Assembly (NCBI RefSeq): GCF_963678975.1
Contig: NC_089275.1
Span: forward strand, 1 to 64,000
DNA: 64,000 nucleotides
Origin: Dysidea avara
Lineage: Eukaryota > Porifera > Demospongiae > Dictyoceratida > Dysideidae
Direction of reading: 5' to 3'
The translations under genes were made by a program, and so were the position numbers. A model generated the notes under the pieces. The model did not search any database. It was not told the origin of the DNA and saw only the letters and a program-made list of their open reading frames with translations. The first letter of the stretch is position 1. Each line of letters starts with the position of its first letter. Below are positions 11,437 to 59,472 of this stretch, piece by piece.

Positions 11437-12629
11437 CACTATTGACAGAACTCTTTAAAATACAGTGGCATATAGAGTAAAGTTGAACATACACAGACAC
11501 AACATATTATGATCAACAGATTTGACATGCAGTCACAATATGTGCCTAAGGCATTAATTTTGGTAGCAAGCAGATGATTTAGTTTTCAAATTAATCACAG
11601 CGTTTAAAGTAAACTCTTGCTTTTCAAGTGTCTATAGGGATGGCAATTGCATAATTCTTTGCTTTATGTACAAGAATTATGTCACTTACATAAGTATTGG
11701 TTGAGAAATTATATCAATGAAAACCTTTTTATAGGTAGATAAAATACATGTACAACAATAACAATCTACTGTCTGCATAATTTTGGCAGGAACATTACTG
11801 GTCATATATTGTAGCATCTCATCACACGCAAGGATTCCACAAATACTCAGCAGGCTAGAAATCATGTAAGATCATTTGAGTGTTTAGGGATTTTTGATAT
11901 ACTGTACCAGAATAAACAAGGTAAAGCAATCCAGATCACATAGTAATCATAAAAGGTATACATCATTCATGAAGAATGGTGCTCCGCACTTTCTGTTAGA
12001 ATTTCCGTGAACAGTGTTTCGTGTTGTCCCTGATGGATAAATAACTTTGCTCTGATTATACAGTTCAAATCAGTATGTTAGAAGGATTTTTTCTTAGGCC
12101 TTTTCTGCTTCCCACACATACAATAGGTTATAGTCTGTAAATACCAGTCAAGTAAATATAAGGCTGTAGCACACCGCAACTACAGTTGCTGGGCACTAGC
12201 TGCAAAGCTACAGCAAACAAGCAACTCGATCATTTTGTAAACAAGTAGCAAAGAACTGCATGACAATTTTGTTTTGTTAATGCTTTATACTTTGGTATGA
12301 TTGACGGTGGAACATACGTATATACGAAGACAGTTTATTGCAATTCATCAACTAACCAGCTAACTAACTGATGCCTTCAGCCAAGCATAACTCAACACAA
12401 TGGATAAGGCTACGTATACAGGCTTACATGTTTCACTGAGCAATGGGTGTAGAAGAAATTAAGCAACAGTGATGTATCACAAATTAATTTTATAGACTCT
12501 TACTTGAGAAAGAGAAAATGAGAGTGAGGCATCGTGGCATAAGGAAATTCATGAAGTGATCCCTGTGGATAAGGTGTATACATGTATATGGCAAAGAGAA
12601 TATCGTGGATGTAGAAAAACAGTATAGTG
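11437..12629. other. Intergenic, nothing recognised
   Basis: AT-rich sequence upstream of the HMG-like gene. The stretch at 12340-12430 (ACTAACTGATGCCTTCAGCC...) is shared with 63300-63390, so it is a copy of a dispersed repeat. No coding signal. Confidence 0.4.
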
Positions 12630-12700
12630 ACACACAAATCGAACCCAGGACCTCTCGATCACTAAGCCGATGTCCTAACCACTTGGCTATGCTTCCTCAG
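12630..12700 (-). mobile_element. tRNA-like SINE head
   Basis: Read on the minus strand from 12700, the sequence has an A-box-like TAGCCAAGTGGTTAG and, about 30 bases on, a B-box-like GTCCTGGGTTCGATT. This is the internal promoter of a Leu/Ser-type tRNA. The acceptor ends do not pair, so it is more likely a tRNA-derived SINE or tRNA relic than a working tRNA. It is flanked by a CA run at 12701-12727. Confidence 0.55.
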
Positions 12701-12727
12701 CACACACACACACACACACGCACACAC

Positions 12728-14028
12728 CTTAATGTTCAACTCCAACTGCATCCTTAAGCTTCTGGAGTTAGTTCTGCAGTACTCTCCTTGCATGTTAAGG
12801 GGTTACCCTTTACCAACCTCAACCTCAGAGACCCCCTCTTGAAAAATTCAGGATCCACTCCTGAAAACAGCAGTTAAGAAACTATAAGCATTTCATACAA
12901 CAATATCGTCAATAATGATCACAGGTGACATTATATGTGTAGTACTACTACTAGAGCTGGGACAAGCAATGATTTTGGTAACTAAATGAATGATATTTTA
13001 CCTAATGAAGCATGCATCATATCATACCTAATGAAAAAGGAATTAGGTAACAATATATATGCACACACGCTAGACATAAAGCAACACAGCCAGACAAATT
13101 GAAATTGAGCATGCGCAGCATCTAGTGGGAGCATAAGAAGTGCCAAGAAGCGCCAACCACACTGGCGGCATTGGCGGGATTACATGTGTTTAGAGACTAA
13201 CAGCCTTGTTGTCACTTCACTACATAGGAGCATCACCAGTTGTGTGGTATGTCTTGTAATGTTGTGTGCTTTATACAATTAACTTAACAAAAAAATGTGT
13301 TAGCAGTTATATGGTAGCAGCGCCTGATCTATTAAATTGGCAAATTAGCGATCATTGGCTTTACGCCTGGGTTAGTATACTCAAACAACAGCAGCTGCAG
13401 TGGAAATTTGTGTATATTACTACTGTAGGTGCTAAACAGCACATATCTGTACTTTTTGGAAACAAAATTGGCCAGTAGGTAACTTGTCTAAATATAGACT
13501 ACTAAAAAGAATTCTTGGTCCAAAATGCAACCAAAGGGACAGGGGAACATTGTCATAACATACACCAGTTCACTACAACAGTAGCTACCTAGCTATTTAT
13601 ATACATCCTTTTTTGTCATATCATGTTTTATGTGGAGCACTCATCGAAGGAATGCTTAACACATCAGTGATGCACCCTGACTATCAATTGTTAAAACATG
13701 GAGTGCCCATTTAAATTTGTCTTCACCTATGTGCCACCCATTATACAGTGTTAAAGATGAAGAACATTACGAGTATTGCCTCTGCAAGCAATCCAGTCAT
13801 TACAAAAATTATGAATAAATGCGTGCGCATTCCGACTAACAATTAATGAAATGCAAATTAGCAATACTGCTTCAGTCTCAGCTATGTTCTGCCCAATATA
13901 CTGTATTGCTTATACAAGAAGTATGAGTAAAAGTGATAGTGCAATCGTGTAGCTGCTGCAGTTGAAAAAAAGCACATATCAGGCCAAAGCAATGTCAAAC
14001 AGTAGTCCCTATCTATACTCACCTAGAA
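12728..14028. other. Intergenic, nothing recognised
   Basis: No splice-supported exon, RNA gene or transposon end found. The plus-strand open frame at 13266-13478 has no motif. Confidence 0.35.
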
Positions 14029-14070
14029 GCATCAGTCAGTCAGTCAGTCAGTCAGTCAGTCAGTCAGTCA
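14029..14070. repeat. (CAGT)n microsatellite
   Basis: About ten CAGT units. The same tetranucleotide, or its complement, opens related dispersed repeats at 36395 and 63300. Confidence 0.95.
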
Positions 14071-14696
14071 GACAGTTAGAAGAAAATTCAGTTAAACATA
14101 AAATTTTATAGAAAAGGACTTGGAATCACTCTGAAGACATTGATGGGCTTGTCTATGCCTAACCAGTGCTGCCAAGCATGATAGAAATGTGAGGTTGGCT
14201 TTTGGGTGATATTTTGTTGGGGAAAGAAAACATCATACAATACTATGACACTCTATCATAGAACTATACATACATATTAATGCACACAGTGGATGTTCAA
14301 ATATAATGCTTTCAGGTAACGATAACAGGGTTCTGCCCAGAAATTCCTGAGTGGTGGCCTAAAGTTAACATGAACTGATACGCTGTGTGTTATATTAGGG
14401 TATATTGCATGTGTATCAGTGATATATGTATAAACTGTACTGGTCAGATTTAAGAGGGTTCTGGTCGGTTTTTAGAGGTACTGGTCACTTTGAACCACTG
14501 CCGACCAGTGTGGGCTGAACCCTGCGATAAATGCATTCGGATAAGTGAACGAAGTACAGTGCATTTGGATACCTGAAGCTGTTAAAATGCCCTTATATAA
14601 CATACTCAAAATAATCTAATCAAACAGCAATTTAACTAAATGTATTTAATCTGTATGTATACTGAAGGTGATTGGCGCTGTGTGCATTGGAGTAAG

Positions 14697-17600
14697 ATGG
14701 ATATCATGAGCTATCCAGGTATCAATTGTATGATGTTTATGTACACATATACAAACTATTTTACATACAGCTAAAGACATCCGACATTATTTTTCTTCAT
14801 CCAAGAAAAGAGGTTAGTTTATCTAATATAAACATAGTATTTAACCAGAACATACCACACTAAATGGCACCACACACACTATAAAATTATCTGCACAACT
14901 GAACACACTCAGTACAATTTACTGTGGATAATTACAGTTGTACCGATGGGTGATGATGGGAGAGATGTACGACCAACTAAAATTACAGTTGCATCGATGG
15001 ATGATGATGGGAGGGATGTACGACCAACTACATCTAAAGATACAGGTAAGTATGTGGTTTCTAGTGCATCCACCACATGAAGAAGTTTTTTTATAGAGGC
15101 TAGCCAAACCATCGTGAAGATCAACAAAATTCAGCTCACAACAAATGATTTTGATATATATACTAAGAAGTACATCTGAGTGGTTAAATTGCAAGGTAAG
15201 GTAAATACTTACCTGAAAGTACTGTTATAGTGTAAATCCAAAATGTAGCTTATTGAAGCCTACCTCTGGTTAATACGGCAGGAATGCAGACAGGTATGTA
15301 CTATGTATACACTGTATGTGACCGGATCAGCAGAAATAGAACATAATTTTTACAGTGATTACAATTGGTAAAATAGCTGCATATTAAAACTCTAAACAAC
15401 TTGCTTTATGTGAAGACTGTGTCTAACAGTAAAAACCTGGATATCATCTTATCTGCCTATATGGTCATCACAATTCTATGCTTTAGTGCAGCAGGCCAAT
15501 GTGACCACTGGATGTGGGTGTTTGTTTACATCCCATCAAATGTCATCAATCTTTCTTTGTTGATTTTGTGTTAAAGAACAGTAGTAAAAGAGAACGGTTA
15601 CATAACACTACAATGATGCAGGTTTCATAAATTTCAACCATTTTAGCTGTAATATAATGTGATTGCCGTACAAATCCTTTCTTTTTTTTTTGTAGTTGCT
15701 ATTTTGTAGGGCTGTAGCTCCAAAAATTCTTGGTATAAGAAGCTAAACTTTTACTACAGCATACAATTGGCTAAGTAGAATTTGCAAAATGCACTATTAT
15801 GCCCTGTACTGAGCACTGATCTTGGGCTGCTTTAATTCCGAAGGAAATCCAAGATACGCCGTATGTCACAGACAAGCCAGCTGTTATATTCCAAACTTTC
15901 CTATGTCTGTGATTCTGTGATGCAATAAATGGTCAGTGGAAAAAGGGGATAAGTGTTATATAAAAGTTAGGTGACCATATATGGTGGACAGTAAATAGAA
16001 TGTTTTGGACAATTGTTAAAATAATTAATTTGATTCAACCTTTGTTTACTTAGTAACAACATTATTCACATGTTTTATATATTCCATTTTTAAAAAAACC
16101 GAAAAATCCAAAATGGTATGTCTCCTTTATCCACTGACGCCTTCAAGTGTTGTAATTGAAAGTATACAATTTGCTGATTTTAGCGAGGAATTTCTGTAAG
16201 TCTGCTGACGTCTCACTATTAGGACTTATACATGACATATGGGTACAAACGTATAGAAAGATTCTTGCACAAGGTACGTATGTACATAAATTATTATATG
16301 TTTTCATTATTTGTATTGATTAAACTACAGAAAAACTTGCTAGGTAGTGATGTAGTAATTACCATCCTAAACTTGCTTGGAAGCCATTGGACACTAATGG
16401 TAGGTTTTCTATGCAACAAGTACCTACATGCACATAATATGCCTCTTAGTTTATGGATCAGCAGAACAAGGTATTGGTCTTTCTTGATCCAATGCAAAGA
16501 CGGAATGGTACCAGGGAAAGTGACTTAGTTAAAAGATTTAAGTAAGCATATGCATACTTTTGTACTATGCTACATTGCACACCACTGCACTGTTGTAATA
16601 GAGGAGCCAGTAATTAAGAATATTGCAAGTGGTTTGTTTTTGGAAACTACTCAAGTGTCCTTAGGCAATCCAGCTAGCAGGATTACCAATAAATCTTACC
16701 ATTGATACCAGTTGTGTAAAGCAATTCCTTTTTACACCATTATTCCAGATGATATAAAATCTATATGTTAAATGTTTCTCTTTTTTTTCAATTTAGAAAC
16801 CTGGTAGAAGTGGAATACCTACACCGCAACGGGCATGCATTTGATTGGATGGGTTGGAACTTCACCAAACAGGTAGCAGATACACAGACCAAATACATAA
16901 TACCATAACTTTGAACTAGTTCAATCTGCCTATTCAAGAAGACACCTACAACTGTGGTTTGTATGTCTGCCTGTATGCAAGGCAGTTACTACATATATCA
17001 AAGGTTAGTACATTTACAAGTGTAGGAAAGGTTTGTAATATGGTCCATTGCATGTGCCATAATACATGTACTGTCTGTCAGATACACATGGAGAAACCAA
17101 ATATCTTAGCTCAGGGGCTAGGCTTAAGTCTATTATGCTTCAACATTACTCCTGAGTTAGCTATTATTATTCCTGAAATTTGTGCCAAATATCAGCATAT
17201 TAGTTAAGATTTAAGGACTCTAGCTAGACTGTCTTATTAGAGAAAGTGACTGTTCTATTAGAGTACCTTGATCCTTTGCCATTGTTATGCTTGCACTGTT
17301 TCAGTGGTGTATGCACACCACTTCTGCTGTAAGCAACTTATAATTTTACAATAAATTACAGGCTGGTGACATCTGGACACGAATGGACATGGCTAGAGAC
17401 CTCAAGAACAAGAGATTGACCACTACTAGAAATTCTGCAGTTGATACAGTGTCAGCGCAAACACTAGCAACAGAAGGTAATACCTTTACTCTAAGCTTTA
17501 TTATAATATAGCAACATACAGGAACTTCTGCAGTTGGTGAAGCCAGTACAGTGTCAGCGCAAACACAAGCAATGGAGCTCAGTGAAGGTAATACCTTTAC

Positions 17601-20283
17601 TCTAAGCTTTATTATAATATAGCAACATACAGGAACTTCTGCAGTTGGTGAAGCCAGTACAGCGTCAGCGCAAACACAAGCAATGGAGCTCAGTGAAGGT
17701 AATACCTTTACTCTAAGCTTTATTATAATATAACAATATACAGGAACTTCTGCAGTTGGTGAAGCCAGTACAGTGTCAGCGCAAACACAAGCAACAGAGC
17801 TCAGTGAAGGTAATACCTTTACTCTAAGCTTTATTATAATATAGCAACATACAGGAACTTCTGCAGTTGGTGAAGCCAGTACAGTGTCAGTGCAAACGCA
17901 AGCAATGGAGCTCAGTGAAGGTAATACCTTTACTCTAAGCTTTATTATAATATAGCAACATACAGGAACTTCTGCAGTTGGTGAAGCCAGTACAGTGTCA
18001 GCGCAAACACAAGCAATGGAGCTCAGTGAAGGTAATACCTTTACTCTAAGCTTTATTATAATATAGCAACATACAGGAACTTCTGCAGTTGGTGAAGCCA
18101 GTACAGTGTCAGTGCAAACACAAGCGATGGAGCTCAGTGAAGGTAATACCTTTACTCTAAGCTTTATTATAATATAGCAATATACAGGAACTTCTGCAGT
18201 TGGTGAAGCCAGTACAGTGTCAGCGCAAACACAAGCAATGGAGCTCAGTGAAGGTAATACCTTTACTCTAAGCTTTATTATAATATAGCAACATACAGGA
18301 ACTTCTGCAGTTGGTGAAGCCAGTACAGTGTCAGTGCAAACACAAGCGATGGAGCTCAGTGAAGGTAATACCTTTACTCTAAGCTTTATTATAATATAGC
18401 AACATACAGGAACTTCTGCAGTTGGTGAAGCCAGTACAGTGTCAGCGCAAACACAAGCAATGGAGCTCAGTGAAGGTAATACCTTTACTCTAAGCTTTAT
18501 TATAATATAACAACATACAGGAACTTCTGCAGTTGGTGAAGCCAGTACAGTGTCAGTGCAAACACAAGCAATGGAGCTCAGTGAAGGTAATACCTTTACT
18601 CTAAGCTTTATTATAATATAGCAACATACAGGAACTTCTGCAGTTGGTGAAGCCAGTACAGTGTCAGTGCAAACACAAGCAATGGAGCTCAGTGAAGGTA
18701 ATACCTTTACTCTAAGCTTTATTATAATATAGCAACATACAGGAACTTCTGCAGTTGGTGAAGCCAGTACAGTGTCAGTGCAAACACAAGCAATGGAGCT
18801 CAGTGAAGGTAATACCTTTACTCTAAGCTTTATTATAATATAGCAACATACAGGAACTTATGCAGTTGGTGAAGCCAGTACAGTGTCAGCGCAAACACAA
18901 GCAATGGAGCTCAGTGAAGGTAATACCTTTACTCTAAGCTTTATTATAATATAACAACATACAGGAACTTCTGCAGTTGGTGAAGCCAATACAGTGTCAG
19001 TGCAAACACAAGCAATGGAGCTCAGTGAAGGTAATACCTTTACTCTAAGCTTTATTATAATATAGCAATATACAGGAACTTCTGCAGTTGGTGAAGCCAA
19101 TACAGTGTCAGCGCAAACACAAGCAATGGAGCTCAGTGAAGGTAATACCTTTACTCTAAGCTTTATTATAATATAGCAACATACAGGAACTTCTGCAGTT
19201 GGTGAAGTCAATACAGTGTCAGCGCAAACACAAGCAATGGAGCTCAGTGAAGGTAATACCTTTACTCTAAGCTTTATTATAATATAGCAATATACAGGAA
19301 CTTCTGCAGTTGGTGAAGCCAATACAGTGCCAGCGCAAACACAAGCAACAGAGCTCAGTGAAGGTAATACCTTTACTCTAAGCTTTATTATAATATAACA
19401 ATATACAGGAACTTCTGCAGTTGGTGAAGCCAATACAGTGTCAGCGCAAACACAAGTAATGGAGCTCAGTGAAGGTAATACCTTTACTCTAAGCTTTATT
19501 ATAATATAGCAATATACAGGAACTTCTGCAGTTGGTGAAGTCAATACAGTGTCAGCGCAAACACAAGCAATGGAGCTCAGTGAAGGTAATATCTTTACTC
19601 TAAGCTTTATTATAATATAGCAATATACAGGAACTTCTGCAGTTGGTGAAGCCAATACAGTGTCAGCGCAAACACAAGCAACAGAGCTCAGTGAAGGTAA
19701 TACCTTTACTCTAAGCTTTATTATAATATAACAATATACAGGAACTTCTGCAGTTGGTGAAGCCAATACAGTGTCAGCGCAAACACAAGCAATGGAGCTC
19801 AGTGAAGGTAATACCTTTACTCTAAGCTTTATTATAATATAGCAATATACAGGAACTTCTGCAGTTGGTGAAGTCAATACAGTGTCAGCGCAAACACAAG
19901 CAATGGAGCTCAGTGAAGGTAATACCTTTACTCTAAGCTTTATTATAATATAGCAATATACAGGAACTTCTGCAGTTGGTGAAGCCAATACAGTGTCAGC
20001 GCAAACACAAGCAATGGAGCTCAGTGAAGGTAATACCTTTACTCTAAGCTTTATTATAATATAGCAATATACAGGAACTTCTGCAGTTGGTGAAGTCAAT
20101 ACAGTGTCAGCGCAAACACAAGCAATGGAGCTCAGTGAAGGTAATACCTTTACTCTAAGCTTTATTATAATATAGCAATATACAGGAACTTCTGCAGTTG
20201 GTGAAGCCAATACAGTGTCAGCGCAAACACAAGCAATGGAGCTCAGTGAAGGTAATACCTTTACTCTAATGATGACCATGTAG
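14697..20283 (+). CDS. C48/Ulp1-type cysteine protease-like gene with tandem exon tail
   Basis: N-terminal exons 14697-14718, 14771-14812 (KDIRHYFSSSKKR, resembling a PCNA-binding motif) and 14938-15045 (two copies of a DDGRDVRPT block) join in phase 1. Protease exons are 16223-16273, 16331-16399 (GSHWTLM), about 16462-16541 (VFLDPMQRRNG), 16797-16872 (FDWMGWNFTK), 16920-17003 (LPIQEDTYNCGLYVC) and 17362-17476. His of HW, Asp of LDPM, Gln and Cys of the NCG segment match the C48 catalytic order. This is a deSUMOylase-like fold also found in some transposon proteins; substrate unknown. Exons joining 15045 to 16223 were not found, so the front part could belong to another transcript. The tail is 25 exons of 66 bases from 17522, each giving a 22-residue repeat (TSAVGEASTVSAQ...AMELSE). 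The last unit lacks a normal intron and reads on to TAG at 20281. Confidence 0.65.
17522..20251 (+). repeat. Tandem exon-intron array, 25 exons, 111-base period
   Basis: Exons start at 17522 plus multiples of 111 up to 20186, with no indel across the array. Each unit has a 66-base exon entering and leaving in phase 1, then a 45-base intron from GTAATACC to ATACAG. Point differences recur: exon variants AGT/AAT, GCG/GTG, GCC/GTC and ATG/ACA; intron variants at the end (GCAACATA, GCAATATA, ACAATATA). The exon ending at 17476 carries a shortened ancestor of the repeat and has the same intron after it. Confidence 0.93.
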
Positions 20284-21039
20284 TCTGCTTCAAAGGGAAG
20301 CATCTGATTTACTAAACAATTAGTCTTGCATTGGCAGGCAGTGAGTTAGGCATAGGACTGTTGTTCTTGCAGTTCTCCTGCGTGCATGGCTTCTAAGGGC
20401 TGCTGATTACCATGTAAACACAAACCTTTATGTTCTAGCCTCACACTTCCTTGTTTTTTTTCTCCTCCACACACAAAATATTAAAAGCGGTTTCGCTACG
20501 CGAGACTATAGTGAATCTTTACATGTAGAGACTATTCGGCCCCCGGTTAGATTGTGACGCAGCCAGGAAACATGCCTTGTTGACAAAGTATATTTGTCAT
20601 TTACCAGAGGGTACATTATTGGGTTCCCACCATTCACGCAGGACCTCTAAGTAATAAATACCAATATACACAGAATTCATTGCGCATGGGAATTTAATAC
20701 TATTGAATACAAATAATTAACAACGCACTGCAACGTGTACAACGTGTGAAACTTACCTGGTTATAATGAACGGTCTTATTGCCGTCCACGCATTCCGCCG
20801 TCCACTTGGATCATATGAACAATATATGCCTCTCCGATTAATTAACCTAATGGCGAGACCAGAGGAGATCGAGTGGCTTCAGAGTGGCTCCCTCAATAGC
20901 TCCACTGTTTACACACGTGAGCTGCATCTGGCGCGGCCGCCCCTTCTTACTGTGGGCTAGCCTATCATGTCAGCATGTGAAATCATAGAGAGACGAATTC
21001 AAGGCAACATGATACACAGTAAAAAGCAGAGTTGCTAGC
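20284..21039. other. Intergenic, richer in GC, possible promoter region
   Basis: Between the protease-like gene and the recombinase gene. The part 20760-20960 is less AT-rich, has several CpG and GCGGCCGC, and on the minus strand ends at ACCAG|GTAAGT (donor at 20756-20757). It could be the first, non-coding exon of a divergent transcript. The 64-residue plus-strand frame starting at 20766 has no motif. Confidence 0.3.
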
Positions 21040-24000
21040 ATGCTAGGTGGATATTTCGATCCATGGAGCTTAGACATAGGCATAGATGCAAGTGATAATG
21101 CTGATGATGATGTGGAAACTACTGACAATCATACAATTGGTACAACATTTTGATATCTATCTGTTAAGTAGGTGTAAGTTTACAGGAGGAGACGCACACC
21201 ACACTCACACAACAGCCAAAGCTACTAAGCCAAATCGAAGAACTCTACCATGCCCCCTATGTGGAAAGCCAGCATTAAAGAAGCTTCGACAGCACTTAAC
21301 CCAAGTCCATAAAATTCCAACTGAAAATAAAATGGAACGTGATAAGCTAGTAATTGAGGCAAGAAAGGTTTGCAATTGTTACTTCAATTGTGTATGAATG
21401 TTAGTTGTGATTCTTTAGATACAAATGAATTTACAAAATTCTTTACATCATGATCAGCCAGAACGTGCTTTACTGGTTAGTATACCGAAATAAAGTTCAT
21501 AGTTTCAATAAAGCTTTTGTAAATTTAGATTGGAAACAAGAGAAACACTAAGAAGGTGAGTGTATAATTATATACTGTGTTGTGCCCTATTCTCTTATTT
21601 TTGATCCATACATCTACAGACACGCATCACAGGATCCTCATGTACATCAACATCAGATGTAAGTTATATACTCATTTTAACAATATACAGATATAATACT
21701 CATAAATTACAAACACATACTTTTGCATTGCGTGATAATCTTGTATTTCTACATGTGCATAGGAAGAACCGTTGATTAATACATATCAGGTACAAATATT
21801 TTGTATGCAGAATATCCCATTATTAAAAATCTTTCAGTTAAATTCACGTGATGAACTTGATGCTTCAGCTTCCACAAGGAAGGTAAATAAATTGAATGCA
21901 ATAAATATTAGCTACTTTACAGTTGTATATTAACAGATCTATCGCACACGATTGAATACAACTAGAAAGGTATTACTTCAATTGCTCTATTAATTACATA
22001 GTGAGACAAATCTACAGAGAAAGATATTAGATGCATCACAACATCTGGCAGAAGTAAGCACTATAACCAGCCAGTACTATAACATTTTACCTTTGCTATT
22101 TTGTAGTCCAGCGATACAGAATGCGATGAGCCCACCATGAGTGATGAATTTCCTCATTTGAAGGGAAAGGTCCCCACCCCTTTTGATGGATATGTTGATC
22201 AGTTTAAGGGGTTTTTGATGGGTCTATCTGGTGGCCGCCAAGAGGAGATTGGTGCTGATAACATAAAGCAGGACATTCTGAAATTTTTCTATTTCGTTGT
22301 GCATACGCACCCACAACACAGGTCCCTGTCATACAGAGATGTCCTATTGAATAAGCACTGTCTTCAGGAATATTTGGATTACCTGGACAAGAATATAGGT
22401 CTACAACCATCAACCATGATGAATAAAATGCGCAAGCTTACCTTGGCCATTCAGTTTGTTAATTTCGTTGAAAATCCAAATGGTACGGATTATCAGTTGA
22501 ATTCTCGATGCCACACATTAGTTGATACCCTAAAGAATTGGGTGAAATCTTTAAGACAGCCACGAGCTAAGCAGAAATCAGACCAGTTCAGAACATCCAC
22601 AGCAAAGGTAAATATTATAACACAGGTGATTGTAAGAATGGGAGGGCTGTTAAAAATATGTTTTGAAAATTCTTGGGGAGATGCTGCAGAGTAGATTGGC
22701 ATTGTTACATAGGCAGCGGAAAGGGGGGGGCTAGGGGGCTAAAGCCCCCCCTCGGTCTGCTGAGGGGGGGCTTAGCCCCCCTCAGAATGATATCACACCG
22801 AAATTATCTTTCTTGGAGTGGGGCTGAAAACCGTGATAAAGATCGAGATACTCTAATAGAGCAGTCACTCTAATAAAGTAGTCAGTGTGTAGCGAGCTGT
22901 GTAAGGATTTTTATGTAGTTTATCAGCTAGAAATGGTAGCTGGTGAGGTGGAAAGCTCTTGTCAGTTGGTTGTGACCTTTTTTTTTTTTTTTTTTTGGTC
23001 TCACCTTACCAAACTATAGAAATAAGTCTGGGTCAGCCCCCCCCTCATATCAACTACTTCCTCCGCCGCTGCATTGTTAGTTTGTGTTATTATAATGGCT
23101 GTTGATATTTAGCTGGTCATTGCATTAAAAAAGCTTTTACATTTATACCATATGACACAAAAGGTGTAAAAATCAAAAAAAGCTGTATCAACTGGGGCAC
23201 CGCTAACTGCCTAAACTCCCTTACTTCAACTACTGTACCCACCATGCTATCTGCCACCTCTTCTTATTGTTGCTGCATTAAATAATACAAATATTGATTT
23301 TAAATGAAGCCCTAATCCTAGTTGCGTTTCTTAGGAATGCTGCTCCTAATCCTAGGGACACTGCTCCTAATTGTTCTAACCCTACTGGCAAGTTCTTACT
23401 GTATTCACAGCCAATGATAAATAAATTTCAGTCTGGGTAGCCCACTTCGTATTATAAAATTGACTAATAAAGTTTGCAAAAATAACAGTCTAACATTACA
23501 TCTATACCATGGTAATTAGTTACGTTTATTTTTAGGCAGAAACAGCAAGCAGCCCTTACGAGTTTATTGACTCAAATGCTGTAAAGCACGAAGTCACTGC
23601 TACCATTGAAAGAGCCAAGAGTGGGACAATTACATCTGAAGACATCAAACTAATAAATGCATACATGGCAGCAAACTTAATGTTTTTAAGTGCCCAGAGA
23701 CCAGCAGCTATTCAGAATATGATGATAGATGAGTACAACAACAAGGAAGAAGATGATGAAAAGAAAGGAAAATATCTAATAAAGGTAGTACGCCATAAGA
23801 CAGCAGCACAAGGGCCAGCTAGGGTTATCGTTAGCAAGAACATCAATGATGTAATGAACATGTATCTTCAACATATAAGAAGCAAGCTAACACCTCAATG
23901 CAGGGAATTTGAGTCGCGTTTCTTTTTAACACCAACTGGGAATGAATACCGAAATCTATCAGAAGCCATTAACAAAGCTGCTAAGTGTTTTAATCTCGAA

Positions 24001-24351
24001 ACTCCAAATGCCACAATCCATCGCAAAGTTGTATCCACGGAAACCAAGAAGCACAAGACAAGTTGCATAGATGAGGTCTGTGATCAGATGAGCCACAGCA
24101 GGGCAACCTGTGAACGTTTTTACCAGAGAACATCCAACGAGCAATCATTTGCAGCACAAGAAACCATAGAAGAGCTATGCTCTAATAAATACTTTAGAAG
24201 GGATCAAAGTGACATCATCACTATTGAGTGGCCGTTAACTAATAATACGGTGCCATTGGCTCTCTGCCATGAGATGACTAAGAAACACAAGATGTTGCAT
24301 GACAAAACTGACAAACAGATCCAGGATCATTGGAAAACATTAAAAAAGTGA
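21040..24351 (+). CDS. C2H2 zinc-finger tyrosine recombinase (Crypton-like), 11 exons
   Basis: Exons: 21040-21139, 21186-21367, 21419-21475, 21529-21555, 21620-21658, 21763-21789, 21838-21882, 21937-21969, 22018-22053, 22107-22607 and 23536-24351. Phases agree throughout and give 620 residues without a stop. Exon 2 holds a C2H2 finger (CPLCGKPALKKLRQHLTQVH). The 501-base exon looks like a helical core-binding domain. The last exon is the catalytic domain: Arg in FLSAQRPAAI, Lys in VVRHKTA, IHRKVVST with the second Arg, MSHSRAT with His, then the likely nucleophile in ERFYQ. This order matches tyrosine recombinases of Crypton type, where an RK-x(3)-T segment replaces HxxR. Seven consecutive exons of 27-57 bases, all phase 0, are unusual. 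It could be an active element's gene or a domesticated one; decayed copies nearby show it is mobile or has been duplicated. Confidence 0.8.
22708..23072. mobile_element. MITE in the last intron of the recombinase gene
   Basis: The ends carry inverted GCAGCGGA (22713-22720) and TCCGCCGCTGC (23062-23072). ATTGTTA flanks both sides (22701-22707 and 23073-23079) as a likely target duplication. The interior has long G runs and C runs near 22723-22780 and 23035-23044 that can pair. No coding capacity. It enlarges the intron without touching the splice sites. Confidence 0.6.
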
Positions 24352-24639
24352 TATGTAGCAAAAAAATAATTTTGTATTAGCTATAAATACTGTTTGCATA
24401 TGTATAAATTATCATAAATGTATAGAAACTATAGTTACAATTATTTCATTTGTCTGTATTAACAGAAACAAATCAATCTATCATACAAACAAACAAATTT
24501 TATCATACCTTTATTCCGGGGCATTTAGCAGATTCTTCATTTTCATATTTCCTGAAACACAAGAAGCTGTATGCTACTGCAGAGTTGTTCCCATTTAGGA
24601 ATACTCTGCAGTGAGTATTCATATAATATACCCTAGAAA
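24352..24639. other. 3' flank of the recombinase gene
   Basis: AT-rich, with no gene. AATAAA-like signals are possible but none stands out. Confidence 0.35.
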
Positions 24640-25225
24640 TAACTAGGCAATGTCAGAATAAAGTGGTATGTCACAAGACAGCAGCAATGGACCAGGCAGT
24701 GTTATTTTCACAACAAATTCAATCCTAAGCCTAACTTCAAAAATTCAAATTTTAAGAGTATTAGCCATCTAATGATCCACAAATGGTTTATATACGTTTA
24801 TATATCACACTTTATTTAATACCAACTGGTAGTGGTCCTGACACTGCCAAAGTCATTTCTAGGGTATACTTATACTCTTATTATAATCCACTCACTTGGT
24901 CTAATCTTCTTTAGCACAACAAACTGTAGAGGAAAAGATAAAAGCAATATTATTAAGATCCTTAACAACAACACTGTGCTGTATGCCATGAAATACCTAA
25001 GAAGTGGCTGTGTGAACTTTTATGCACATCATACAGTAGTATGCCATGATCAGAAGCCAACAAAATTGCCAAGCATGTTAACCTTGAAACTCCAAATGCC
25101 ATAATTCATCACAACGTGGTATCCACTGAAACCAAGAATCACAAATGAGCCACAACAGGGCAACCCGTGAACTTACCAGAGAACATCCAATGAACAATCA
25201 TTTTCAGCACAACAAACCACAGGAT
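24640..25225 (+). pseudogene. Decayed copy of the tyrosine recombinase catalytic exon
   Basis: Blocks match the upstream catalytic exon in order: GTGGTATGTCACAAGACAGC (about 24663), AACCTTGAAACTCCAAATGC (25080), a part encoding the RK-x(3)-T region with the Arg changed (ATTCATCACAACGTGGTATC), then ATGAGCCACAACAGGGCAAC and the AGAGAACATCCAATGA block. Frameshifts and deletions break every frame, and the stretch between IKVV and the LETPNA region is replaced or diverged. It is a dead duplicate, tail to tail with the intact gene and on the same strand. Confidence 0.75.
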
Positions 25226-25289
25226 GTAGGACATAAACATAGGACCATAGCCGCCAGCATTTGTGTTGTAAAGCCTTAATAAGTAAAAT

Positions 25290-25560
25290 AAAAAAAAGCG
25301 CAGCTGTCTCCATGTCTGATGCCTGCCTAAGTATGACATATCGTGGTAATAGATCATAACTATGGCATTTTAACCTCAGTATTTGCAAAGAAATAAATAA
25401 AAAAAGAGCGCAGCTGTCTCCATGTCTGATGCCTGCCTAAGTATGACATATCGTGGTAATAGATCATAACTATGGCATTTTAACCTCAGTATTTGCAAAG
25501 AAATAAATAAAAACTAGCTGCAGCTGTCTCCATGTCTGATACCTGCAATAGGATGACATG
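25290..25560. repeat. Tandem repeat, 110-base unit, about 2.4 copies
   Basis: GCAGCTGTCTCCATGTCTGA recurs at about 25300, 25410 and 25520, exactly 110 bases apart. The first two units read as nearly identical; the third diverges after about 40 bases. Confidence 0.9.
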
Positions 25561-27019
25561 ATATAATAATCGAATTAAAGCACATCATGCCATGGGACCA
25601 TAGCCAGCCATAATGCAGTGCTTTTCAAACGAGGCTGTTGGCAAACGGTAAATATCTAAATAGCCTAAGCAGGCTAACACTATTAAACTGGTGCAAATGT
25701 ATCAGGAACCGTCGGCGGCATCAGGATATTTTTTATACTAGATTATATATTACATCTACTCACTGTAGCGAGAATTTAGGTATGCCTCGAGCCTCAATGG
25801 AGAACGTGGCCCAATAGGGTCGTCACGTGACATAACTTCCAATTTGGTTTGCATTACTCGCGTGATCACACAGTATGTGCCACGTAGGTAGTAGGTAGGC
25901 ACGCACACAGTAGGTACGCACGACTCCCTAGCCTTTCGGTGCAGTACAAATGATCGAAAATCGCGTAAACGTCCGCGTTGGGCTTGAGCGTAAGCGTTGG
26001 TCAGTTACCACAAGAGGCTATGTGAGTTTAGCACCACTGCTAACCGACGCTACACAATAACGCCTACTTCACATGCACAGCAAAAAAATATTATTTTGTT
26101 ATTTATCTGTGCATTCGAAAGTTGCTAGCATTAACTTGCAATCAAAGAGTGGGCGTGGCTCGTTTAAATAAAGCATAGCAGCGCACATAAAATCATTAGC
26201 TATTCGCAATCGGGAGAAGCTCAACGTCGCATCTATTTACATTAAACCCTGCAGTATCACAAAATATACATCAATATCTCATGTGATCCGAAGCAAAGGG
26301 TCTATTCCTGGACAAAACGAAACTATCCCTGGACAAAATGTTGCCCATAAAATTCCTATTTGGATATGTTAATGTCTCTGAAAGCTCCAAAAGTACACCA
26401 TTGACCTCAGGAATATGCACAATTTGGTTTTAAATCTGAGGTTTCACCAGGGCCATAGAGGGACATACGGGGACATTTGAGGTTCCATGTAAGGACCCTA
26501 ACCCTAACTTGATGTCCTGACTTGGGAATATATAGGTGTACATTTTACCTTAGACTCTCCTCTTTCATTTGACATGGTTGCCATGGCAACTTTTTTCAGG
26601 GACAAATAGGGACGTATAGGGACATCATCTAGGGACGTGCAAGCATATGACCTAAAATATTAAGTAACAGTTTTGCTGTGTCTGTGCTTATTAGCAACTG
26701 AATATTGACATATTCATACTATGTAGCTCTCCTATTGCTAAGATCTGCTGCAGGGACTCCCCAAATATAAGAGAATACCAAAGTCTCATGAATTTACAGG
26801 CCCATAACTTATTCTAATGGAAACCAATCATATCTATTTTTCACTATCTTGTACCTTCATCCTTACAATACATGTTAAACATAATAGAGAGGCCATATAT
26901 ATCAGTACTGTCCTTTTAAAATTCTTCGGTGTCCCTAAAACCTCAACAATGTCCGGTCCATATCTCACTCATTCATTAATCAATTTTGTATATTTTACAC
27001 CAATAAGTATATCTCAGTC
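25561..27019. other. Intergenic with a short interstitial telomere motif
   Basis: No exon recognised. CCCTAACCCTAA occurs at about 26506. The sequence around 26290-26640 repeats phrases such as GGGACATA and TGGACAAAA without a clear unit. Confidence 0.35.
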
Positions 27020-27022
27020 TAA

Positions 27023-27476
27023 GGCCCCTATTCGGTGATTATTAGTTTCTCATCCAACCTTTCTAATTATTATGATGCGGGCGGGAGGGTATTACCATTA
27101 TGCCATTATTTTATAATATTAATACACTGATGTACAGACCTTGCCCAAATTGTCTTTCTTTCTTACTACAAACATTTCCTTCACCAGCTGATTCTACTTT
27201 TCGTGATCGCCAACTGCTTTTCGACAGTCAACTGAAAGCCTGCTTTGATGAAGTCGATAGAGCACGATTGCAACTGGCACTGCAGCAATTTGCTAAGGAA
27301 AACAACAGTTCTCCTGGTGATATATAGCACATTGTAGCGTTCATCAACAAAAATTAAAACAGTTTGGTATCACGTGTTCTTCTGAGCATGCGCAGAGTAA
27401 ATAATGGCTTACCATGCGGTAGCCTAAGAAGGATGCGGGCGGTGGATGAGAAACTAATAATCACCAAATAGGGGCC
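27023..27476. mobile_element. Non-autonomous PIF/Harbinger-like element
   Basis: Inverted ends of about 36 bases begin GGCCCCTATT and end AATAGGGGCC. TAA flanks both sides (27020-27022 and 27477-27479), the three-base duplication usual for PIF/Harbinger. At 450 bases it is too short for a transposase. It contains an open stretch after a CAG acceptor at about 27186 reading ADSTFRDRQLLFDSQLKACF, then QLALQQFAKE, to a stop at 27327. This looks like the end of a helical protein, perhaps the element's old Myb-like protein or a captured host exon. Confidence 0.75.
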
Positions 27477-27479
27477 TAA

Positions 27480-28768
27480 AGTATGTTCTCATTGATTAAT
27501 TTGAACCATACAAGTCATGGCTGATACTTGAGAATGTGCAGTAGTTTCCGTCCCCGAGCTCCCTCCGCGTCACATCTTCCAGCAGTATCCGGGCCACCAG
27601 AGCACCGCCAAGCAATTTCTATGTTACTATAGGACTTTCTGTGAAGTACTGCACCTGGAAATCGTTTTACGTATTAAGGTTCTGGCAAAATTGATTCACC
27701 ACGCAGTCGTCACGAGTTTGAATCGAAATACTCTAATACTAATAGAACGTTCAGTTGCTATAGTGATTTATAATAAAGGAAAAGTAGTCTACAAAAACCT
27801 GCACTAAATTTTAAGAACATTAGCACGGAATGAAAAAACTAGCCCTTGTAAGTTGCGACTATTCTAGCATACCACACCCCCTGAATTACATAGCAGGACG
27901 TTTGCAGGGCCAATGCAGGCTTTATAGGGCAATCCGCATCCACAAGAATAATGAGTGGAATTAGGGTTAGAGAACTTGTCTTTCTAAAGACCTGAGAATC
28001 AAGAGATTGATGTCTATGAGCACAGGTTGAAAAGTCGACGTACTCTAATAATAGAATGTTCAACTACTCTAATAGAGCAGTCAAACAGTGACGTCATCAA
28101 CTTACTGTAGGAGTGCACTCATGTGATTGCCTAATATCGTGGTCGCACTTTTAGCATGAATATTAAAATAATCTTGAGCTACAGCAGCATGCAATGGCTA
28201 ACAATGAGAATCAGTAGATTATTTGTGACATAATACATAAGAAGGCCCTCCAAGCAGTAATACAACAGTCTATGGCAATTTAGAAATATTCTAGTCCTAA
28301 AGCTGCTTATCAAGCAATCAGTTACTCGCAATAGATCTTTTTGGCATGTGATTGTGTAGATTGGAACATTTACTTTGCCTTTGTAGTTTGTGTGTGTGTT
28401 GTACTATAGCTTATTTTATTTTTGTAGCTTCCTACATCTCTATTGTTGCATGTGTCCGAGGTGTTGTACTTATCTGTTTTGAACATGTTTACTTTCTCTC
28501 ATACAGTATAATTATCTACACCACTAGTTCAATCAATCTAATAACATGTGCACGTACACATGCACCAAATACACACAGACACACTGCTCCTGATGAATTC
28601 AATATGGAACAATAAAAACATAGTTTAAAATCATGGCTAAATAGAACATATATTTGACTATACACAATAAAAAAAATCAAGTTTAGTTTGTTCATTTCAA
28701 ATGGCTACCTGCAACAAAAGCAAAATATGTGTAGTGACGTAGAGGCTTATGCGAGACAGTGACACACT
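27480..28768. other. Intergenic; carries copies of the CTCTAATAGAG dispersed motif
   Basis: No gene. The dispersed motif described among the findings occurs near 27727 and 28041-28076. Confidence 0.35.
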
Positions 28769-28769
28769 C

Positions 28770-29570
28770 ACCACAATACACATCGAGACACACTACACAG
28801 GTAGACTCACACACTACACTACACAGGTAGTAGACACACACTACACTACACAGGTAGTCACATACAACACTACACAGGTAGACTCACACACTACACTACA
28901 CAGGTAGTAGACACACACTACACTACACAGGTAGTCACATACAACACTACACAGGTAGACTCACACACTACACTGCACAGGTAGTAGACACACACTACAC
29001 TACACAGGTAGTCACATACAACACTACACAGGTAGACTCACACACTACACAGGTAGTAGACACACACTACACTACACAGGTAGTAGACACACACTACACT
29101 ACACAGGTAGACTCACACACTACACTACACAGGTAGTGGACACACACTACACTACACAGGTAGTAGACACACACTACACTACACAGGTAGACTCACACAC
29201 TACACTACACAGGTAGACTCACACACTACACTACACAGGTAGTGGACACACACTACACTACACAGGTAGTAGACACACACTACATTACACAGGTAGACTC
29301 ACACACTACACTACACAGGTAGTGGACACACACTACACTACACAGGTAGTAGACACACACTACACTACACAGGTAGACTCACACACTACACTACACAGGT
29401 AGTAGACACACACTACACTACACAGGTAGTCACATACAACACTACACAGGTAGACTCACACACTACACTACACAGGTAGTAGACACACACTACACTACAC
29501 TACACAGGTAGTCACATACAACACTACACAGGTAGACTCACACACTACACTACACAGGTAGTATGTATCA
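28770..29570. repeat. Minisatellite built on CACACTACACTACACAGGTAG
   Basis: Units of about 27-30 bases alternate between ...AGTAGACA, ...ACTCACA and ...AGTCACATACAA forms in longer blocks. The same array resumes at 29808-29882 after an insertion of recombinase-derived DNA. Confidence 0.93.
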
Positions 29571-29807
29571 GAAGCCATTAACAAAGTTGCCAAGTGTTTT
29601 AATCTTGAAACTCCAAATGCCACAATCCATTGCCAAGTTGTATCCACGGAAACCAAGAAGCACAAGACAAGTTGCATAGATGAGGTATGTGATCAGATGA
29701 GCCACAGTAGGGCAACCTGTGAACGATTTTACCAGGGAACATCCAACGAGCAATCATTTGCAGCACAAGAAACCATATAAGAGCTATGCTCTAATAAATA
29801 CTTTAGA
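29571..29807 (+). pseudogene. Fragment of the recombinase catalytic exon inside the minisatellite
   Basis: Matches 23945-24195 nearly base for base (ATCAGAAGCCATTAACAAAG to AATACTTTAGA). The catalytic-region Arg codon is changed (CGC to TGC), and a TAA follows AAACCATA. It keeps the His of MSHSRAT and the YQ segment. It starts and ends abruptly in the repeat, so it looks like filler or a gene-conversion patch rather than a full insertion. Confidence 0.88.
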
Positions 29808-31927: not shown

Positions 31928-33574
31928 CCTGCCATTAAACCTCCGACCAACCCAAGAACCCCTATCATTTACTTTCTGAAGAAGCTTCACAAAAATCCAA
32001 TCTCAGTGAGACCAATTGTTTCCTCAGTACAATCACCCACTAGTAATCTATCCCACTTTATGGACCTACTGCTTAAACCTATTGTGAAGAACATCCCTCA
32101 AATCCTGACAAATTCCACTGAACTTCTCCGAGAATTACAAGCCATTACCATTCCCGACAATACCATTCTAGCCTCCCTTTATGTAAGCTCACTGTATACC
32201 AATATTCCAACAGATGAAGCAATTGACATTGTCCTAAAGTATCTAGAAGAAACCCAATCACCGCAACAACCACCAAATCAGCTACTCAGAGAATTATTAA
32301 ACTTTATCCTCAAGTGCAACTGTTTCACCTTCTGTAACCTTTTCTATCTACAAGTACAAGGCGTAGCAATGGGTACAAAGATGGCACCCAACTTTGCGAA
32401 CATCTTTATGGCCAACTTTGAAGAAAAACACATCCTACAACGAGAAGACAAGCCTTACTTTTATAGAAGATACCTGGACGACATCTTTATCATTTGGACT
32501 GACACCACCTCAAAACTACAACAACTTGTCACTGACATCAACAATTGCCACCCTACGATCAAACTAACAAGTGAAACATCTACCGAATCCATAAACTATT
32601 TAGACTTGACAATCACTATCAACAGCAAGCAATTGACAACCAGCACTTACTTTAAACCAACCAACACATTTAGCTACCTACCAGCAAACTCTCACCACCC
32701 AAACTCTACCAAACAAGGAATAGTTAAAGGAGAAATGATCAGAATGTTACGTAACAACTCGGAACAAACAGGCTTTACAGAACAATCAGACTTCATCAAA
32801 GACAAACTTGTACAAAGAAACTACAGTAACACCACCATCCAACAGCAAACACCTGATTATAGCCAGAGGACAGATTACCTTACTACAACCAGCAAGAAAT
32901 CATCAGAACACAGAGTCACCTTTATCACAAACTTTGACCCATCCATACCAACAGCAAACATCATCAGAGAACACTGGCCTCAGTTACTATGTGAAGACAA
33001 TCTCAGACGTAGACTTACCACTGGACCGCGAGTATGCTACAGAGCCCCACCTACAATTGGAAAATTATTGACAAGAGCAGCAGTTAACACCACACTTCCA
33101 AACAATGAAGCTTCAGTAACGCCTACAATTTGGAAACCACCATCGCTACCAGCAAGAAACATCAAATGCAGAACTACAAACTGTGCCACCTGCCCAACGC
33201 TGACGAACAAAAGCCACTTTACTAGCTACCAGAGAAAGTCTTACCACACAATTGATAACATCTACTCCTGCGACACAACAAATGCTATTTACCTACTTGA
33301 ATGCTCTATTTGTCAAAAGCAATGCATTGGAGAAACAGGTACCACCGTTAGAATAAGAATGAGACACCATCGAAACAAATTTACAGCTAAAACTGACCTA
33401 CCGATCTACCGCCACCCCTCAATACACAACAAAGATTTTTCCATCTACAAACTTACCATAATTGACAAACATGATGACAGAAGCACAAGAAAGAAGAATG
33501 AAATGGACTGGATCACAACATTAAAGACAAAGATACCCTTTGGACTCAACATCATAGCAAAAAAGCCACCTTGA
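31928..33574 (+). pseudogene. Penelope-like retroelement ORF: reverse transcriptase and GIY-YIG
   Basis: The open frame starts after a stop at 31925-31927 and lacks its own ATG. It reads TNPRTPIIYFLKKLHKNP, then VRPIVSS, LYTNIPTDEA, GVAMGTKMAPNFANIFM, RRYLDDIFIIW and INYLDLTI, all reverse-transcriptase blocks of the Penelope type. The C-terminal third carries a Cys-rich spacer (CRTTNCATCPT) and a GIY-YIG-like endonuclease (NAIYLLEC...QCIGETGTTVRIRMRHH). The motif-A Asp is replaced by Tyr (LASLYVSSLYTNIP, codon TAT at 32180-32182), so this copy should be inactive. The N-terminal part is missing or frameshifted before 31928, where a CACTACA minisatellite ends. A near-tandem 83-base repeat lies in the 3' flank (33617-33757). 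Confidence 0.88.
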
Positions 33575-38093: not shown

Positions 38094-40040
38094 GTCCTAG
38101 TAATAACAACTGTACATGAGACCACAAACTACAGGACCCATATTCCTAGAAATAATTACTATGTGACCACTAACTACAGCTCCCATGATAACAACTATGT
38201 GACCGCTAACTACAGGACCCATAGTCCTAGTGATAACCACTAACTACAGACTCCTAGTAGTAACCACTAACTACAGACTCCTAGGAGTTCTGTAGTTAGT
38301 GGTTATTACTAGGAGTCTATATAGTTAGTGGTTACTACTAGGAGTCTATAGTTAGTGGTTACTACTAGGAGTCTATAGTTAGTGGTTATTACTAGGAGTC
38401 TGTAGTTAGTGGTTACTACTAGGAGTCTGTAGTTAGTGGTTATCACTACTACGGATCACCACTAACTATAGACTCCTAGTAATAACTACTAACTATAGAC
38501 TCCCAGTAGTAACCACTAACTACAGACTCCTAGTAGTAACCACTAACTACAGACTCCTAGTAGTAACCACTAACTATAGACTCCCAGTAGTAACCACTAA
38601 CTACAGACTCCTAGTAGTAACCACTAACTATAGACTCCCAGTAGTAACCACTAACTACAGACTCCTAGTACTAACCACTAACTATAGACTCCCAGTAGTA
38701 ACCACTAACTATAGACTCCTAGTAATAACCACTAACTATAGACTCCCAGTAGTAACCACTAACTATAGACTCCTAGTAGTAACCACTAACTATAGACTCC
38801 CAGTAGTAGCCACTAACTACAGACTCCCAGTAGTAACCACTAACTACAGACTCCTAGTAATAACCACTAACTATAGACTCCTAGTAGTAACTACTAACTA
38901 TAGACTCCTAGTAATAACCACTAACTACAGACTCCTAGTAATAACCACTAACTATAGACTCCCAGTAGTAACCACTAACTATAGACTCCCAGTAGTAACC
39001 ACTAACTATAGACTCCCAGTAGTAACCACTAACTATAGACTCCTAGTAGTAACCACTAACTATAGACTCCTAGTAGTAACCACTAACTATAGACTCCCAG
39101 TAGTAACCACTAACTATAGACTCCCAGTAGTAACCACTAACTATAGACTCCTAGTAGTAACCACTAACTATAGACTCCCAGTAGTAACCACTAACTATAG
39201 ACTCCTAGTAGTAACCACTAACTATAGACTCCCAGTAGTAACCACTAACTATAGACTCCTAGTAGTAACCACTAACTATAGACTCCCAGTAGTAGCCACT
39301 AACTACAGACTCCCAGTAGTAACCACTAACTACAGACTCCTAGTAATAACCACTAACTATAGACTCCCAGTAGTAACCACTAACTACAGACTCCTAGTAA
39401 TAACCACTAACTACAGACTCCTAGTAGTAACCACTAACTATAGACTCCTAGTAGTAACCACTAACTATAGACTCCTAGTAGTAGCCACTAACTACAGACT
39501 CCCAGTAGTAACAACTAACTACAGACTCCTAGTACTAACCACTAACTATAGACTCCCAGTAGTAACCACTAACTACAGACTCCTAGTAATAACCACTAAC
39601 TACAGACTCCTAGTAGTAACCACTAACTATAGACTCCCAGTAGTAACCACTAACTACAGACTCCTAGTAATAACCACTAACTACAGACTCCTAGTAGTAA
39701 CCACTAACTATAGACTCCCAGTAGTAACCACTAACTACAGACTCCCAGTAGTAACTACTAACTATAGACTCCTAGTAATAACCACTAACTACAGACTCCC
39801 AGTAGTAACCACTAACTACAGACTCCTAGTAATAACCACTAACTATAGACTCCCAGTAATAACCACTAACTACAGATTCCTAGTAATAACCACTAACTAC
39901 AGACTCCTAGTAGTAACCACTAACTACAGACTCCTAGTAATAACCACTAACTATAGACTCCCAGTAATAACCACTAACTACAGATTCCTAGTAATAACCA
40001 CTAACTACAGACTCCTAGTAATAACCACTAACTACAGGCT
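38094..40040. repeat. 27-base minisatellite with an inverted block
   Basis: Unit ACTCC(T/C)AGTAGTAACCACTAACTA(C/T)AG, about 65 copies. From about 38283 to 38450 the units run in the opposite orientation, with a palindromic junction at ACTCCTAGGAGT (38277-38288). Confidence 0.95.
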
Positions 40041-40105
40041 CCACACAGTATCACTGCATGATATGTATGTAAAGATTGATATTAAAAATAATTTAACAAA
40101 ATAAT

Positions 40106-44746: not shown

Positions 44747-44939
44747 ATATTTGTGTTTATACAGTATTGTATGAATTATTGAAATACTCTAATAGAGCAG
44801 TCACGTAAATACTCTAATAATTCAGTCAAGTGTATCTGATAACAAAAAAAAACCATACAGCACAGCCTACTTATAACTTCACATTTCCACACATGGCTCC
44901 ATGTGTGACACGCAACCATGCTGTGTTTGCCACGTAGCA

Positions 44940-45838
44940 ATGTCGCACATGTCACAGAGGGATTTTGTAATGTCTCACACATGTCACAGAGGGATTTTGT
45001 AATGTCACACATGTCACAGAGGGATTTTGTAATGTCACACATGTCACAGAGGGATTTTGTAATGTCACACATGTCACAGAGGGATTTTGTAATGTCACAC
45101 ATGTCACAGAGGGATTTTGTAATGTCACACATGTCACAGAGGGATTTTGTAATGTCACACATGTCACAGAGGGATTTTGTAATGTCACACATGTCACAGA
45201 GGGATTTTGCAATGTCACACATGTCACAGAGGGATTTTGTAATGTCACACATGTCACAGAGGGATTTTGTAATGTCACACATGTCACAGAGGGATTTTGT
45301 AATGTCACACATGTCACAGAGGGATTTTGTAATGTCACACATGTCACAGAGGGATTTTGTAATGTCACACATGTCACAGAGGGATTTTGTAATGTCACAC
45401 ATGTCACAGAGGGATTTTGTAATGTCACAAATGTCATAGAGGGATTTTGTAATGTCACACATGTCACAGAGGGATTTTGTAATGTCACACATGTCACAGA
45501 GGGATTTTGTAATGTCACACATGTCACAGAGGGATTTTGTAATGTCACACATGTCACAGAAGGATTTGTAATGTCACACATGTCACAGAGGGATTTTGTA
45601 ATGTCACACATGTCACAGAGGGATTTTGTAATGTCACACATGTCACAGAGGGATTTTGTAATGTCACACATGTCACAGAGGGATTTTGTAATGTCACACA
45701 TGTCACAGAGGGATTTTGTAATGTCACACATGTCACAGAGGGATTTTGTAATGTCACACATGTCACAGAGGGATTTTGTAATGTCACACATGTCACAGAG
45801 GGATTTGTAATGTCACACATGTCACAGAGGGATTTTGC
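44940..45838. repeat. 30-base minisatellite, 30 copies
   Basis: Unit AATGTCACACATGTCACAGA + GGGATTTTGT, with very few changes (single-base loss near 45565 and 45803). Long frames exist on both strands because 30 is divisible by three and the unit has no stop; nothing suggests they are genes. Confidence 0.97.
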
Positions 45839-57992: not shown

Positions 57993-58013
57993 ATACAACA
58001 CAACAATTCTTAC

Positions 58014-59147: not shown

Positions 59148-59472
59148 TTCAGATACACTCCAATTAAAGCCCACTGTTTGGCGTTGTTTAGAAAAATGAA
59201 CACTCGATTGAATTTCCTCTGCAGTGCTGTGGACACGTGCTACGCAAACACACCAACTACAGCACGATATCTTTGGTAAGTGACTGTGTGCCTGTCCATT
59301 TATAATTCAGAGTTGGGGTAACGCTTACGCGTTACAATTATTGTAACGCGAATTCTAATACATAACCCGTTGCCAGGACAATAACAGGAGTGATGGAGTA
59401 CTCGTGATACAGTGGAACCTGTCAATCAGGACACTTGAAAATGAGGACACCTGTGTAATCAGGATACCTGGC
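59148..59472. promoter_or_regulatory. 5' flank of the PAP2 gene
   Basis: Would contain the promoter and 5' leader. A hAT-like end (CAGAGTTGGGGTAACGC, about 59308) with CGCGTTAC palindromes lies 160 bases upstream of the start codon. No TATA box stands out. Confidence 0.3.

Follow-up and report, generated by a model that had tools for sequence, protein, structure and literature searches.

Can a complete exon and a complete intron together form the unit of a minisatellite, and does such an array at the end of a gene imply that a protein with a repetitive tail is made? The question is raised by a stretch of 64,000 nucleotides from the sponge Dysidea avara (contig NC_089275.1 of assembly GCF_963678975.1, positions 1 to 64,000 of the forward strand), hereafter the window. 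A tandem array of 111-bp units occupies positions 17477-20251 of its plus strand, at the 3' end of a putative peptidase C48 (Ulp1/SENP-type) gene. We consider it likely that a once-coding exon/intron unit was amplified here as a subtelomeric minisatellite within a decaying duplicate, and that the array does not serve a working protease.

The array and its unit

The 25-fold exon/intron array is real. Tandem Repeats Finder (TRF) called a repeat at 17473-20269 with a period of 111, 25.2 copies, 97% matches and 0% indels, and cutting at each donor yielded 25 full units, head-to-tail and each exactly 111 bp long. The unit consists of a predicted 45-bp intron (GTAATA...TACAG) followed by a predicted 66-bp exon that is in phase 1 at either end. 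The donor GTAATA and the acceptor ATACAG are kept in all 25 units, and the joined plus-strand exons contain no stop among the 549 codons of the phase-1 frame. The original prediction had described this very arrangement, with 25 repeats of a 66-bp exon and a 45-bp intron, a period of 111 without indel, intact GT and AG and phase 1 throughout, and it is confirmed.

The mean pairwise identity of the units is 97.2%. Of the 14 variable columns, 11 fall within the exon and 3 within the intron (Fisher P 0.15). When translated through, every one of the 25 introns shows an in-frame stop (20 TAG and 5 TAA). According to an excerpt of PMC11334263, many eukaryotes select against introns that are translatable throughout. 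Since one unit was copied 25 times, the stops in this array count as a single event. Moreover, units that are 2, 3 or 4 places apart are more similar than under a shuffled order (P 0.001-0.004), and an exact block of 298 bp that spans exon-intron borders recurs at a lag of two units. Thus, copying of the array probably proceeded in blocks of several units, irrespective of the borders between exon and intron; stepwise block duplication would give the observed likeness.

The array is flanked by incomplete copies. Upstream, predicted exon E6 (17362-17476) is in phase with the protease exons, and it closes with a 48-bp variant of the repeat exon, which falls short of the 66-bp form by 9 bp at each of two places (the aligner splits the first deficit as 8+1, and the second is deduced from the lengths). 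Downstream, a truncated intron copy of 18 bp is followed by a read-on to a TAG at 20281-20283 (together 20252-20283). A possible polyadenylation signal, AATAAA, is located at 20653-20658, and ATTAAA is present at 20480.

The putative protease gene

Judged from predicted exons that join in phase, the array is the 3' end of a gene of the Ulp1/SENP type (peptidase C48). The gene model, which lies entirely on the plus strand, starts at the ATG at 14697 and has five N-terminal exons (A1-A5: 14697-14718, 14771-14812, 14938-15045, 15097-15195 and 15249-15293), which are followed by E1 (16184-16273, with an in-frame TAG at 16220-16222), E2 with the HW motif (16331-16399), E3 with FLDP (16450-16541), E4 (16797-16872) and E5 with NCG (16920-17003). 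Exons E2 to E5 are supported by Pfam family PF02902, by SENP1 and by the intron phases. The match to PF02902 had an E-value of 1.4e-9 and scored 38.6 bits against a curated cut-off of 20.7, in a search that used an earlier model in which E1 began at 16223 and E3 at 16462. Chains of SENP1 match by sequence as well (best E-value 8.4e-7), and HW, FLDP and NCG align with the H, D and C of SENP1, which we take to be its catalytic residues. From 16273 onwards the predicted junctions, from E1 through E6 into the array, are all in phase and the introns are of the GT-AG type.

The earlier model, with a short exon at 16223-16273 and a third exon from 16462, was dropped because the paralogs and the alignment with SENP1 gave the starts 16184 and 16450; the acceptor before 16450 removes a four-residue gap relative to SENP1 and keeps the frame. 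Outside the array, 13 introns were predicted, 10 in this gene and 3 in the next. Nine of these measure 46-57 bp (the others are 125, 255, 358 and about 890 bp long), so that the 45-bp intron of the array is near the local norm. Exon A3 includes an in-frame tandem duplication of its own (14930-15030), in which 51 bp, or 17 residues, occur twice with TACAG in each copy.

Searches for a further identity of the repeat or the gene returned little. Pfam, applied to six repeat copies with E-values up to 1, gave no leucine-rich repeat (LRR), and its matches to ArnB_C and DUF6799 were below the cut-offs. No clear transposon ends were seen among the 25 longest of 252 pairs of inverted repeats around the gene, and Rfam and ARAGORN gave nothing over the window. 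The exact pattern of the array intron had no match in viral contigs, that of the array exon none in viral contigs and prokaryote genomes, and the protease part gave one pattern match in viral contigs, which tblastn did not confirm.

Copies of the locus within the genome

The genome itself (550.8 Mb in 108 contigs) was searched for relatives. Among the best candidates listed (33 matches in the DNA search and 29 in the repeat-protein search), the 111-bp unit occurs at three loci: the subtelomeric one in the window (contig C4) with 25 units, and two on contig C15, P1 near 501.6 kb with 2 units and P2 near 1733.4 kb with 3. All five units of the paralogs are 111 bp long, with GT and AG intact and an in-frame stop in the intron, and at all three loci the first copy is shortened and the last one truncated in the same way. 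The same three loci hold the close relatives of the protease among the best candidates listed, the other C48 matches having 30-33% identity. As an alternative to the gene end described above, the donor of the 18-bp remnant could be spliced to an acceptor that ends at 20372, and this version would be open for 61 codons in the window and in P2, and for 32 in P1.

The similarity extends well beyond the array. A block of at least 17 kb (12350-29774), including a zinc-finger/tyrosine-recombinase-like gene, is shared with P1 and P2; its left border at 12350 is the same in both paralogs, whereas its right end is simply the end of the compared paralog sequence. Gaps and inserts occur, and the main collinear pieces match the window at 91-99% identity. 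A sequence that is present in P1 and P2 and absent from the window (at about position 21070) groups the two paralogs together. Some unit variants are common to different loci, and therefore more than one type of unit existed before the loci split, unless variants were exchanged later.

Copy number thus differs by whole units (25, 3 and 2) between duplicates and the frame is kept. The original prediction had proposed that the protein gains or loses 22-residue repeats by unequal exchange without loss of frame, and that a transcript would need some 25 identical splice choices in a row, so that skipping of exons would give a ladder of isoforms. The whole-unit differences between the paralogs agree with the gain and loss itself; that a functional protein varied in this way is made doubtful by the lesions found in all three copies (see below).

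Evidence for and against a coding history

We regard a coding history of the unit as probable. The principal alternative is that the array is a non-coding minisatellite downstream of the gene. The gene would then end at the stop in the first 'intron' (17509-17511), and the unit would have arisen by duplication of the end of the last exon together with this stop, its exon/intron look being inherited or accidental. Indeed, reading on in frame into the first intron adds just 11 residues before the TAG. Furthermore, a loosely defined division into exon and intron (GT, AG, an intron of 40-60 bp and an open exon of 3n) was feasible in 76.5% of 400 base-shuffled units, so that such a division alone is no evidence. 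Nevertheless, only 63 of 5000 random 111-bp windows matched both splice scores of the array with an open 3n exon. The contrast in GC content within the unit (50% in the exon versus 27% in the intron) and the similarity in size between its intron and the short introns at this locus likewise argue against a non-coding origin, which we consider unlikely.

The splice scores were trained on the 13 predicted introns outside the array, including the acceptor at 16222 that was later given up when E1 was redrawn. In the unmasked window, 5.2% of the GTs and 5.9% of the AGs score as high as those of the array. In favour of a coding history, the alignment of the window with P2 from E1 to E6 has 0 gap columns in the exons and 10 in the introns.

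Several observations weigh against a once-coding unit, and the first and the last of them are what the non-coding alternative would lead one to expect. Twelve of the 13 reference donors score above the array donor (5.45) and 10 of the 13 reference acceptors above the array acceptor (5.79), and in the unit tested an AG located 10 bases upstream outscores the acceptor (8.66 versus 5.79). The 20 units with TAG at this place have this AG, and the 5 with TAA lack it; use of the AG would add 10 bases to the exon and break the frame. The codon score is best of the six frames for the exon frame, yet it is matched by 17.8% of 3000 random open 66-mers, and was discarded as proof of coding because it is too weak. 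The junction between E5 and E6 is supported by phase, the Pfam and PDB matches ending before E6, and outside the array the GC contents of exons (35-47%) and of introns (21-38%) overlap. Between the window and P2, exons E1-E6 are no less diverged than the introns (2.3% versus 1.7%). The low copy numbers of P1 and P2 may reflect contraction from a longer ancestral array. Finally, the exon variants of the window array comprise 9 nonsynonymous and 2 synonymous changes (2/11 versus 29% expected, P 0.33; two adjacent changes in an ATG codon always co-occur and were counted singly), and over all 30 units the numbers are 10 and 4. With this ratio the repeat looks neutral, with no sign of selection.

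The regularity of the array was also discarded as an argument for selection. Given the 14 variable columns, kept splice dinucleotides (P 0.58) and exons without stops (P 0.67) are expected by chance, and 0% indels are likewise found in other satellites of the window, namely a 27-bp array at 38458-40042 and a 30-bp array at 44939-45837. The latter, a unit present about 30 times, is open on both strands, its long frames being due to a unit length that is divisible by 3.

Decay of the gene copies

The three gene copies carry different lesions, and all therefore look non-functional. In the window, the exon at 15097-15195 differs from its counterpart in P2 by a frame-shifting 4 bp, and the in-frame TAG in E1 (16220-16222) is absent from P1 and P2; the reading frame of the window gene is not intact on either account. 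P2 has lost the donor after E3, and its exon A3 is shortened and has lost its donor as well. In P1, the stretch examined gave no match to A1-A5, E2 and E3 are about 5.5 kb apart, homology breaks inside E3, the codon of the catalytic histidine is changed, E5 has a 4-bp gap and the terminal stop is shifted.

It might be argued that the window gene is nevertheless alive, an alternative start or splice site avoiding the lesions. It would then encode a protease with a length-variable tail of 25 repeats, and skipping would give isoforms 22 residues apart. There is indeed an ATG inside the exon at 15097-15195, in the frame 0 that gives the WLNCK part, and the stop in E1 also creates an AG in phase. 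Moreover, every repeat exon is symmetric and open. Over the 486 bp from E1 (from 16223) to E6, the N-terminal exons being left out, 11 substitutions separate the window from P2. Six of these are synonymous and 5 nonsynonymous, a leaning that hints at earlier selection; in the corresponding comparison with P1, the break in E3 confounds the count. However, the different lesions in three of three copies, which include the loss of the histidine codon in P1, and the neutral pattern of the repeat make a living gene very unlikely. Current protein function, and a working 25-repeat protein in particular, is doubtful.

That the open minus-strand reading frame 18858-20303 (481 amino acids) is the gene can be rejected almost with certainty, since a unit length divisible by 3 turns one open unit into a long frame, the minus strand has 1 stop in 924 codons over the array versus none in the 549 of the joined plus-strand exons, and its codon score is negative.

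A probable history of the array

The once-coding minisatellite probably came about as follows. A C48 gene whose introns were in several cases about 50 bp long would once have carried a short tail of low complexity. A 111-bp stretch that comprised an entire intron of 45 bp and an entire symmetric exon of 66 bp (22 residues, phase 1-1) would then have become tandem. Because such a unit breaks neither the frame nor the splice sites, unequal exchange could add and remove units freely, each gain bringing one more intron and 22 more residues. The block of at least 17 kb would have come to lie at three loci, the subtelomeric copy in the window having presumably expanded to 25 units. All gene copies now carry lesions, and the array would be a record of a coding exon/intron repeat.

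A bolder proposal would see the 111-bp minisatellite as an intron multiplier. Each unequal exchange would add one spliceosomal intron and 22 residues to the protease tail while the frame is kept, the alleles of a single variable number tandem repeat (VNTR), driven by the subtelomere, would differ in both intron number and protein length, and the 25-unit allele would be transcribed and give a ladder of skipped forms. We consider this distinctly unlikely.

The locus provides a small and clean natural example in which introns and a protein repeat can increase in number jointly when whole units are exchanged, and a single genome shows three states of it (2, 3 and 25 units). If transcribed, the array would test the spliceosome on 25 near-identical tiny introns in series. 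As a likely pseudogene, it illustrates that tidy exon/intron repeats need not imply a selected protein.

Surroundings of the locus

The window begins with the telomere repeat CCTAAC (TTAGGG) up to position 1469, followed to 2634 by 2.6 copies of a 445-bp unit with 100% matches. Together with the tiny introns, this telomere repeat suggests a metazoan. Downstream of the array, a gene at 22137-24351, with an exon that by eye looks C2H2-like and follows an ATG at 21040, resembles tyrosine recombinases, a label that we assume from its motifs, with no Pfam match at 0.001. A tblastn search of the genome with its C-terminal part gave 59 matches, and C15 accounts for 32. Fifteen of the 59 start within 50 kb of a contig start, and 3 of these 15, including the query, are in the window. 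A reverse transcriptase frame at 32006-33574, presumably Penelope-like, barely reaches the cut-off for RVT_1 (29.6 bits). Finally, a 14-bp satellite of about 805 copies (46750-57997) enters the 3' end of a minus-strand frame of the PAP2 family (57963-59174).

Comparison with known systems

The original prediction had called a coding tail of this construction rarely described, which is true of the size class at best, since LRR genes of Tetrahymena with arrays of 90-bp exons are known (PMC6564038, in excerpt). According to these excerpts, LRR genes in which 90-bp exons and their introns stand in tandem number in the thousands in Tetrahymena species; in T. thermophila the number of such exons ranges from 1 to 51 per gene, the youngest genes are subtelomeric and pericentromeric, and unequal crossing over was proposed (PMC6564038). 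They are the nearest described case that we found and a close precedent. Both systems have one exact exon length, a single intron phase and an intron inside the unit (PMC6564038, same excerpts), which by sequence holds for all 25 units of the window. The Tetrahymena arrays, as excerpted, are in phase 2, combine a 90-bp exon with an intron of about 257 bp (T. thermophila), encode LRRs and have RNA-seq support (PMC6564038). The window array is of none of these kinds: it is in phase 1, has 66+45 bp and units that are about 97% identical, belongs to a C48 gene at three damaged loci and is known from sequence alone.

Other likenesses are more partial. Spider silk genes, of which the Flag silk gene was reportedly described by Hayashi and Lewis in 2000, have units much longer than 111 bp. 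Like the window array, they show highly similar introns within a gene and repeated exons (excerpt of PMC3522626). They differ from it in encoding structural proteins of silk. As in a minisatellite or VNTR, the copy number of the window array varies, here between paralogous loci. LPA is a functional gene with a VNTR unit that holds exons and introns. Its kringle IV type 2 VNTR is protein-coding, in which it is like the window array (PMC11462820). Tandem duplication is also known to yield new introns, and in the cases excerpted from PMC2812944 the duplication runs across a boundary, or copies an exonic AGGT, to make the new intron. In the window array, by contrast, a whole existing intron would have been copied along with its exon. 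A keyword search of the open-licence literature gave, among the matches listed, no exon-plus-intron array near 111 bp. The array is a much smaller version, nearly identical from unit to unit, of the Tetrahymena-type exon/intron repeat in another gene, and what is new here is the short near-identical unit, the tiny intron and the protease context.

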